Source: Nocardia sp. NBC_00565
GTDB taxonomy: Bacteria > Actinomycetota > Actinomycetes > Mycobacteriales > Mycobacteriaceae
Reading direction: 5' to 3'
Length of the DNA: 64,000 nucleotides
Assembly (NCBI RefSeq): GCF_036345915.1
Contig: NZ_CP107785.1
Coordinates: 558,001-622,000, forward strand
Both the position numbers and the translations under genes were made by a program. This document shows positions 4,706 through 16,623 of this stretch, piece after piece (position 1 is the first letter of the stretch; each line of letters opens with the position of its first letter). The notes under the pieces are model-generated. The model was not told the origin of the DNA. It ran no database searches and was given only the letters and a program-made list of their open reading frames with translations.

Positions 4706-5977
4706 GTGGGCACTTCACTCGTCAAGGGACAGAACGGCCCGCTGACGGTATCGAATGTCGTTGTCTCGGTGCGATCGACGGCCGCGGCCGATGTCAGCGC
4801 GCTATTGGTGACCGCGGCCGGCCGGGTGCGCACCGACGCCGACTTCGTCTTCTTCAATCAGCCGAATGCGCCCGGTGTCGAATTGCGGTCGGGAACGCCC
4901 GCGTCGCTGGCCGTTTCCTCGGTTGACGTGCCCGCGGAGATCGCGCAGATCCGCGTGGTCATCACCCTCGACGATGCCGCAGCGACCTTCGGGCAATTCG
5001 CGGCCCCCGTCGCGACCGTCGCCGACGGATCCGGAAATACGCTGTACGAGTACGTGCTCGGGGGGCTGGGCAGCGAGTCGGTTGTCATCGCGCTGGAGTT
5101 GTATCGGCGTGGTGCCGAGTGGAAGATCCGCGCGGTCGGGCAGGGTTATGCGGGTGGTTTCGCCGCGCTGGTGACCGACCACGGTGTCAGCGTCGATGAC
5201 GAGCCGGCGTCCGCCGCGCCGCAAGCCCCTGCCGCCCAGCCATCCCCTGAGGTCCGCACCGTCCCCGGCGAGGCAAAACTCTCCTTCGAAAAACGCGCGA
5301 AACTCGACCTCCGTAAACGCGAAGTCGCCAAGGTGCTGATCACCAAGAACGCCTTCGGAATTCGTGCCCGCGTCGTCCTGGTCATCGACAAGACCCTCAG
5401 CATGACCAGGCAGTACAGCAAACAGGTCGTGCACCGCGTCGTCCAGCGGATGATCCCGATCGCGACCCAGCTCGACGAGGACGGCACCTTGGAGGCCTAC
5501 CTCTACGCCCTGTCCTTCGCGAAACTGCCCGATATCACCGTCGAGCACGGTGACGAATGGGCGCAGACCTTCCTGCACCTCACCGGCACCCACCAGGGCA
5601 TCGACTACGCCGCGATCGGCGGCCGCAACGACGAACTGCCGATCATGCGCGACATCATCGCTTCGCTGCGCCCCGGCGATGCCCCGACCCTGGTGCTGTT
5701 CTTCACCGACGGCGGCTTCGCCAAGAAACGCGAGATCACCGCGCTCATGCGCGACGCGTCCCGCCTGCCCGCGTTCTGGCAGTTCGTCGGCCTCGGCAAA
5801 GCCAACTACGGCCTGCTGCGCACCCTCGACGAAATGTCGGATCGGGTCGTCGACAATGCCGGCTTCTTCGCCATCGACGACATCGACCAGGTCGACGACG
5901 CGCAGCTCTACGCCAGGCTGCTCGGCGAATTTCCGGACTGGCTGCACGCGGCGGGCCGAGCGGGCATCCTGCGCTGA
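4706..5977 (+). CDS. TerD-domain protein fused to a von Willebrand factor A domain
   Basis: 423 aa. Residues 1-160 form a TerD domain (SLVKGQNGPL start, F-V-F-F-N strand, E-L-Y-R-R-G-A-E-W-K-I-R-A-V-G-Q-G-Y near 131-148). A Pro/Ala-rich linker spans about 165-190. Residues 215-423 form a vWA domain like TerF, with metal-site motif D228-K-T230-L-S232 (D-x-T-x-S instead of D-x-S-x-S) and a later FFTDGGF. TerD domains bind calcium, and TerF-like vWA proteins occur in Ter stress-response loci. The start is GTG 4706 with CAGGAGAG 5 nt upstream. The usual TerZ/TerC/TelA partners are absent nearby. A second TerD protein is encoded at 12532-14271. Confidence 0.88.
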   Translation: MGTSLVKGQNGPLTVSNVVVSVRSTAAADVSALLVTAAGRVRTDADFVFFNQPNAPGVELRSGTPASLAVSSVDVPAEIAQIRVVITLDDAAATFGQFAAPVATVADGSGNTLYEYVLGGLGSESVVIALELYRRGAEWKIRAVGQGYAGGFAALVTDHGVSVDDEPASAAPQAPAAQPSPEVRTVPGEAKLSFEKRAKLDLRKREVAKVLITKNAFGIRARVVLVIDKTLSMTRQYSKQVVHRVVQRMIPIATQLDEDGTLEAYLYALSFAKLPDITVEHGDEWAQTFLHLTGTHQGIDYAAIGGRNDELPIMRDIIASLRPGDAPTLVLFFTDGGFAKKREITALMRDASRLPAFWQFVGLGKANYGLLRTLDEMSDRVVDNAGFFAIDDIDQVDDAQLYARLLGEFPDWLHAAGRAGILR

Positions 5978-12531: not shown

Positions 12532-14271
12532 TCAGATCCGCGCGCCTTTGGCCCGGTTACAGGCACGGCAGAGGATCTGCAGATTGGTCGCGCTCGTCGC
12601 GCCACCGCGGCTGAGCGGAATGATGTGGTCGAATTCGAGGTAGTGGCCGTCGCCGCATTCGACACATTTGCCGCCGTCGCGTTGCCACACTTCGGCTTTG
12701 ACCTCCTGGGGGATGCTGCGGGTGTCGCGCTGGCCCGGGGTGAGGATCAGGCGTTTGGCGACACGCAGCGCGCCCTCCATGGCGGCCGCGACGTAATCGG
12801 GGTCCTCGACATCGAAGGTGGCGCCGCCGCGCGCCGAGGTCGCCGCGATGACCACCGTGCGTTGCTCGACCCGCACCGAAACCACCCGGTTCCACGGCAA
12901 TTCGGTGCCGGTGTCGATTCCGACGAAGCGCAGCTTCTTATTGCTGGCGATCAGCCTGCCGTCGGTGTGTTTCGGGCCGCGCGCCAACTGCCGGATATGC
13001 ACCGCGGCCAGGTCCAGGTGCACCTTCTCCTCGGGATCCAGATGCAGTCCGGGCGTCCGGACCAGCGGCAGATCACCGCCGCGCAGCCGGGACAGCAGGT
13101 GGCCGCGGTGCATTCGCCTGCGCAGATCCTCGACCAGCGGCCCGGTCAGACCCAGCTCATGGATCGCCTGCTCGAACGCCTCGAACTCCGGCTGCTCGAT
13201 CTCCCCGTCCGCGAACGCGAAGGTGACCAGTCGCTCAACATAGCTCAGCGCCACCGCACGCAACGCATCCCGGCCCAGGTTCTCGTCGATCCGCTGATAC
13301 CGCAACGACGCCCACAACGCGTCCCAATCCGCGCCGCGCGGCCCCGACGTGGTGAGCACCCGCCAAGCCTGGGTGTGCCAGTGCGTCAGGTACTCCTCGA
13401 TCTCGGCCGCACAGTACAGACACGCCGCAAGACCACCGAACAGCTTGCGCCGCCTGAGATGTCCGCAACGCGCACACTCGCGTGCGCGCGGGGGTCGGGG
13501 CGGATACCCGGCGCCGGTCCACTGCGTCCCATCCCACCACCGCAACCTCGACGGATCCTCGGGATCCGCATACCAGTCGGCGCGTTGGGAATTCGGCGGC
13601 GGTGCGAGCGGACCGGGTTCAACCGCCTGTCGACGTCGGTCGAGATCGATCGGCCTGGTCGGCTGGGATGGCATCGGGGTGTTATCCGCTCGCGAAGCGG
13701 TCGGCTCATGGTCGGCGCCGGTCGGTTCGCGCTGCGATCGGTGCGTTGCGCCCGACGCTCGCGCGTCGGGTTCGTCGACGTTGACGCCGAATTCGGTGAC
13801 GAGTCCGGGCAGTCCGCTCGACCAGCCCTGGCCGATGGCGCGGAACCGCCACTGGTCCTCGCGGCGATAGAACTCGCCGAACATCATGGCGGACACCGAA
13901 TCGGCGTCGGTGATCTCGAATCGCGCGATCGGGCCGTGAGCGGCTTCGATGGTGAGGGTCAAACCCGTGATATCGCCGAAGGTTCCCGCGTCGACCGAGC
14001 CCGCGACGACGATCCGTGCCACATCCGATTCGGTGCGCGGTAGCGAGACACTCAGTCGCGCGGTGCCCGGCGCGGGCTCCTGATCGAGCGTCACCGCCTG
14101 CGACATATGCCGGGGCGCGTTGAAGAACACCAGATCCCGATCGGTGCGCACCGATCCCGCCGCCGCCAACAACAACGCATGCGCATCCACCGCATGCTCC
14201 GACCGCCACGAAACAACCACGGCAAGAAGGGAAGTCGGTACCGCCGTATTGGCCCCTTTACTGAGTTTCAT
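12532..14271 (-). CDS. TerD - DUF2510 - zinc ribbon - PH-like - HNH nuclease protein
   Basis: 579 aa with a rare architecture. Residues 1-165: TerD domain (KLSKGANTAV, D-L-V-F-F-N, F-G-E-F-Y-R-R, R-A-I-G-Q-G-W). 166-230: polar Pro-rich linker. 233-257: DUF2510 (WYADPEDPSRLRWWDGTQWT). 266-287: zinc ribbon C-x2-C-x14-C-x2-C. 340-380: helical TerB-like patch with a D-G-E-I acidic motif. 405-508: GRAM/PH-like beta domain. 518-579: HNH endonuclease with C536/C539, the D548-H549 pair, N563 and C568/C571. All HNH residues needed for metal binding appear present. The start ATG 14271 is chosen because it begins the TerD fold. TerD proteins belong to stress and predicted anti-phage networks; a sensor-nuclease role is inference. 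Confidence 0.85.
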   Translation of the reverse strand: MKLSKGANTAVPTSLLAVVVSWRSEHAVDAHALLLAAAGSVRTDRDLVFFNAPRHMSQAVTLDQEPAPGTARLSVSLPRTESDVARIVVAGSVDAGTFGDITGLTLTIEAAHGPIARFEITDADSVSAMMFGEFYRREDQWRFRAIGQGWSSGLPGLVTEFGVNVDEPDARASGATHRSQREPTGADHEPTASRADNTPMPSQPTRPIDLDRRRQAVEPGPLAPPPNSQRADWYADPEDPSRLRWWDGTQWTGAGYPPRPPRARECARCGHLRRRKLFGGLAACLYCAAEIEEYLTHWHTQAWRVLTTSGPRGADWDALWASLRYQRIDENLGRDALRAVALSYVERLVTFAFADGEIEQPEFEAFEQAIHELGLTGPLVEDLRRRMHRGHLLSRLRGGDLPLVRTPGLHLDPEEKVHLDLAAVHIRQLARGPKHTDGRLIASNKKLRFVGIDTGTELPWNRVVSVRVEQRTVVIAATSARGGATFDVEDPDYVAAAMEGALRVAKRLILTPGQRDTRSIPQEVKAEVWQRDGGKCVECGDGHYLEFDHIIPLSRGGATSATNLQILCRACNRAKGARI

Positions 14272-14452: not shown

Positions 14453-16534
<2,082 letters not shown>

Positions 16535-16623
16535 CGTGCTCCGAACCCTACGCCGCACCGGTCGCGGCAAACTGTTGTCATGCGCCTTCAGTTTGGTCCG
16601 CCGTGTGGTGCACAATGTGGGAC

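Follow-up and report, generated by a model that had tools for sequence, protein, structure and literature searches.

What would a single polypeptide do that bears a TerD domain at one end and a predicted nuclease at the other? Such a protein, of 579 aa counted from an ATG, is encoded on the minus strand at positions 12532..14271 of a 64,000-nucleotide stretch of the Nocardia sp. NBC_00565 genome (this whole stretch is referred to as the window). To our knowledge, the effect of the Ter response on DNA and the action of Ter genes against phages are open questions, and a chain that combines TerD with a predicted nuclease makes the ligand, membrane and DNA steps approachable in one purifiable protein.

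Three Pfam families were detected above their curated cut-offs in the 579-aa protein: TerD (residues 2–161), DUF2510 (233–262) and HNH (536–578). Structure prediction, which the first-pass annotation had proposed as a check, was made with AlphaFold from 39 aligned sequences (model m7521eb927a28; mean pLDDT 86.7, pTM 0.55); the pTM is low, and the relative placement of domains therefore carries no information. The model contains a TerD sandwich, a disordered linker (approximately residues 173–215), short DUF2510 strands, the zinc ribbon region, a five-helix bundle (285–397), a seven-strand-plus-helix domain (417–505) and the strands and helix of HNH.

The TerD domain (13789..14268, minus strand, like all parts of the gene) belongs to PF02342, as it passes the curated cut-off and has the TerD fold. 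It had been described as being of the calcium-binding type, and this description was not supported. The calcium role of TerD domains lies in an anionic loop, GDNxTGxGxGDDE, which is visible in structures 2kxt and 3ibz; it is present in none of the 39 rows of our alignment A3, whereas of five further TerD proteins from this genome two have it and three lack it. Three further parts were borne out as first annotated. The DUF2510 segment (PF10708; 13486..13575) scored 28.8 bits against a cut-off of 24 (Pfam, 9.8e-07). The CxxC-CxxC zinc ribbon (13411..13476) has four cysteines that are invariant across A3, of which C266 and C269 were found in 79/80 and C284 and C287 in 80/80 of the loci examined. 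The GRAM/PH-like domain (12751..13065, approximately residues 403–507) adopts a PH fold in the model. What had been called a TerB-like acidic patch lies in a helical bundle (13081..13419, approximately residues 285–397) with invariant D355 and E362; helices in predicted models, a profile match and TerB matches in relatives argue for a TerB-like bundle, but a PDB fold search with it gave no structural confirmation of the TerB fold (PF05099).

The predicted HNH nuclease domain (12535..12666, residues 536–579) scored 49.3 bits against a cut-off of 21.4 (Pfam, 5.3e-13) and has the metal and catalytic-type residues that had been noticed in it, namely Cys 536/539/568/571 together with D548, H549, N563 and N572. 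C536, C539, D548 and H549 are kept in all 80 loci, and N563, C568, C571 and N572 in 79; the locus in which the latter do not align is probably L067, where the HNH frame is cut. We estimated dN/dS between the window gene and six orthologues (seven loci were entered, and L090, which yielded no reading frame, was left out). For residues 518–579 the six comparisons gave 0.000, 0.000, 0.000, 0.019, 0.010 and 0.009; elsewhere the values were 0.10–0.28 for TerD, 0.17–0.34 for DUF2510 plus zinc ribbon, 0.14–0.31 for the TerB-like part, 0.11–0.24 for PH and 0.13–0.63 for the linker. HNH is the part under the strongest purifying selection, as an active enzyme would be.

The segment from zinc ribbon to HNH forms a core that occurs behind different front ends. 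A profile search with it (E 1e-3) gave 151 proteins, of which the best 120 of 151 were examined. Among the matches listed, a short form of approximately 320–340 aa has no TerD, and TerD forms occur both with and without DUF2510. One core carries an FHA front end (P0221), other forms have extra TerB-like helices, and one of the latter, P0220, has two likely transmembrane stretches (judged by eye). Acidobacteriota, Armatimonadota, Dactylosporangium and Gordonia are among the taxa named for core relatives. As a side observation, the helical TerB part of P0220 and of L149:9338-10702 matches the PADLOC candidate family PDC-S48 (3e-20 and 3.9e-14, respectively). Separately, a gene for a DUF2510 protein (L064:11040-11705) adjoins a short-form gene; DUF2510 is fused in the Nocardia protein, so the two may be a functional pair.

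All 118 genus genomes have a match at E 1e-3, owing to TerD paralogues. A strong match (2.4e-109 or better) was found in 114/118, all except G006, G086, G092 and G106, a count that includes G096, whose listed core match ends at residue 443, and in which orthologue and paralogue were not separated in every genome. A second paralogue is present in some Nocardia genomes (e.g. L050, L052). The upstream, co-oriented and conserved neighbour of the Nocardia gene is of pabAB type (14453..16615, minus strand), presumably an aminodeoxychorismate synthase. It is found in 57/80 loci, in the same orientation as the HNH gene in 56 of the 57; 70 of the 80 loci are named Nocardia, and of the 13 Nocardia loci without pabAB six have <3 kb upstream of the match. 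The chromosomal position of the gene beside pabAB is thus stable in Nocardia. About 6.6 kb from the HNH gene, the window contains a gene for a TerD-vWA (TerF-like) protein (4706..5977, plus strand; Pfam vWA-TerF-like 1.4e-76, TerD 5.1e-26), which in full length flanks 32 of the 54 pabAB-bearing loci with >9 kb downstream. The first-pass annotation had seen in the chain a one-protein sensor-effector: the constraint on HNH and the varied N-terminal modules ahead of the core fit this view, whereas a fixed, near-universal Nocardia locus beside pabAB does not.

We compared these genes with Ter genes. On plasmid pRadio2 of Deinococcus radiophilus the gene heads a ter cluster, being followed by TerD, vWA, TerD, TerD and DUF475; the divergent genes there are ATP-grasp, PRTase, HAD, AIM24, StiP and CitE-type. 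In the Nocardia locus L050, the paralogue has a TerD gene directly upstream. The genes adjoining the TerD-HNH gene of D. radiodurans (L155) are not ter, ten more actinobacterial regions (nine TerD-length matches and one short form, L181) have no Ter neighbour, and none was found by tblastn (1e-8, Deinococcus ter protein queries) in L044-L049, L126, L129, L130 and L132. The genome from which the window comes contains a cluster of Ter biosynthesis type at approximately 7.97–7.99 Mb, unlinked to the HNH gene. The Ter marker PF15609 is above cut-off in 93/118 genus genomes, in counts that here and below ignore kinship, and all four genomes lacking a strong match belong to the 25 without it. Outside the genus it was found in 87/186 family genomes; it is present in all three family genomes with TerD forms (G144, G290 and G134) and in G265 and G293, which have short forms; G161 and G974, also with short forms, are negative, so that two of four short-form genomes lack it. 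In one family, f92, the marker was positive in 15/15 genomes checked out of 18, a figure that covers gene-bearing genomes only. This co-occurrence weakly backs a Ter link. The gene is retained in 21 of the 25 marker-negative genus genomes and therefore does not require the Ter operon. The connection with Ter stress suggested at first is supported by the D. radiophilus cluster, the L050 TerD gene and the weak co-occurrence, but not by those 21 genomes.

Given the intact and constrained HNH, the D. radiophilus ter cluster, the L050 TerD gene, the marker co-occurrence, the variety of front ends and the carriage by prophages described below, we read the protein as an endonuclease (or nickase) that would act on DNA as a single chain and serve the Ter stress response as a DNA-processing effector, and we give this reading an even chance of being correct. 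A role as the DNA-cutting arm of that response is the most likely one. TerD and the TerB-like bundle would read the Ter signal, either a ligand or partner proteins of a Ter complex; the GRAM/PH domain may hold or recruit the chain to a membrane lipid or a partner; and the signal would cause HNH, aided by the zinc ribbon, to cut DNA. Candidate substrates are DNA that enters the cell and the cell's own DNA, the latter either when damaged or as a brake on growth; carriage by prophages and the Deinococcus relatives lead us to guess at incoming or damaged DNA.

Prophages carry relatives of the zinc ribbon-to-HNH core. In L150:9019-10780, a cassette of an Arc-type repressor and TerD-HNH lies on the strand opposite the phage late genes. 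The viral contig L151 has a HATPase gene (L151:3751-5559) with a weak MzaB match and also a short-form gene whose product probably begins with a membrane segment at its N terminus. An antiphage use is plausible for the prophage-borne relatives. The Nocardia protein could be viewed as a dedicated anti-phage effector, sensor and nuclease in one, which would cleave phage DNA or bring about the death of the infected cell and which prophages would have spread before its domestication in Nocardia; we consider this rather unlikely, as the Nocardia locus is fixed and near-universal, HNH evolves almost unchanged, and the PADLOC matches are weak and nearly all HNH-only. PADLOC gave 15 weak matches to the 579-aa protein, 14 of them confined to C-terminal residues 514–579 and the remaining one to PDC-S48 (E 0.028, residues 329–401). 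A catalogued anti-phage system was rejected, as no PADLOC match extends beyond HNH except this weak one. The anti-phage link that had been suggested is supported by relatives in prophages, but the Nocardia gene is in no defence island. The neighbours of homologues, which the first-pass annotation had proposed to inspect, include a ter cluster and prophage contexts; Nocardia copies sit beside pabAB.

Less probable still is a core DNA-maintenance nuclease of Nocardia, acting in repair or recombination, whose relation to Ter would be ancestral only. Its presence in 114/118 genomes, fixed beside pabAB, its retention in 21/25 genomes without the Ter marker, the constraint that is strongest on HNH, and the radiation-resistant hosts of the Deinococcus relatives would all suit such an enzyme, but it is absent in 4/118, and outside the genus it is sporadic (6/186 family genomes, with HNH broken in one). 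Across the class sample, a match at 1e-20 was found in 25/394 genomes; f92 accounts for 18 of the 25, and in three (G707, G773, G825) only the HNH end is matched. The matches listed outside the genus for the phylum sample (396 genomes) are short, mostly of HNH and a few of DUF2510. Nor would a repair enzyme be expected to have such varied front ends or to be carried by prophages. It is very improbable that HNH remains merely to bind DNA or for structural reasons, with the chain acting as a scaffold in the Ter complex: HNH cleavage is so far predicted from sequence, but the metal and catalytic-type residues are kept and dN/dS is near 0 for HNH alone.

Returning to the DNA-processing effector, we conclude that the predicted nuclease family is real, widespread and modular, and that the protein may well be a DNA cutter set off by stress or phage, for which it makes a good candidate. 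More tentatively, and with some doubt, we suggest that the zinc ribbon/TerB-like/GRAM-PH/HNH core may define a nuclease family not yet catalogued, whose members would work as single chains, be recruited to the membrane and differ in an exchangeable sensor (TerD, FHA, extra TerB-like helices, transmembrane segments); they would be DNA cutters triggered by stress or phage that serve as a prophage defence cassette and have been domesticated as a Nocardia core gene. The TerD-nuclease chain is notable for being near-universal in one genus and also present in a Deinococcus ter cluster; the natural short form without TerD and the prophage forms serve as comparisons.

The protein L155:8407-10038 of D. 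radiodurans is probably DRA0057 (the number that we assume for this locus), to judge by its domains and by how close its gene lies to bphP. It has the same order of TerD, zinc ribbon, TerB-like part and HNH, and its PH-type region aligns; it differs in having no DUF2510 match and a more recognisable TerB, and in lying on a 412-kb replicon without adjoining pabAB. PMC10614293 (citing Makarova 2001) describes DRA0057 as a fusion of TerDEXZ/CABP with an endonuclease domain, and PMC1978522 tabulates D. radiodurans genes of the terB and TerZ/TerD kinds. A TerD-endonuclease fusion is thus already on record (PMC10614293), and the initial statement that the arrangement has no described function needs restriction. 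The zinc ribbon/TerB/PH/HNH core is not named in the titles and abstract openings of the papers listed by our searches, and a mention in Anantharaman et al. 2012 is possible. HNH domains of McrA, IscB, Cas9 and ZRANB3 type have the same CxxC...DH...N...CxxC pattern; the match (sequence matches are 6ghc, 9k2z, 8d2k and 5mkw) is limited to HNH, and Pfam detects neither SRA nor RuvC nor a helicase domain in the chain. A McrA-type restriction enzyme for modified DNA was rejected, since Pfam finds no modified-base reader such as SRA beside HNH. TerB is listed for Shango and Bunzi (PMC10952713) and for Dionysus (PMC12926258), systems with which the Nocardia protein would share its putative TerB-like module; none of the three is among the PADLOC matches of the 579-aa protein (2023 library, which may not include Dionysus). 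A TerD-dependent anti-phage system is mentioned in PMC3710099, and PMC7159879 suggests that TerD might recognise nucleotide derivatives. In the Ter-dependent stress response (Anantharaman et al. 2012), TerB and TerD are possible readers of a nucleoside-like signal, according to PMC7824862. The Nocardia protein would share these presumed readers through its TerD domain and TerB-like bundle, and its D. radiophilus relative heads a ter cluster; it differs in that its gene lies apart from the genome's Ter cluster and in uniting reader and predicted effector on one chain.
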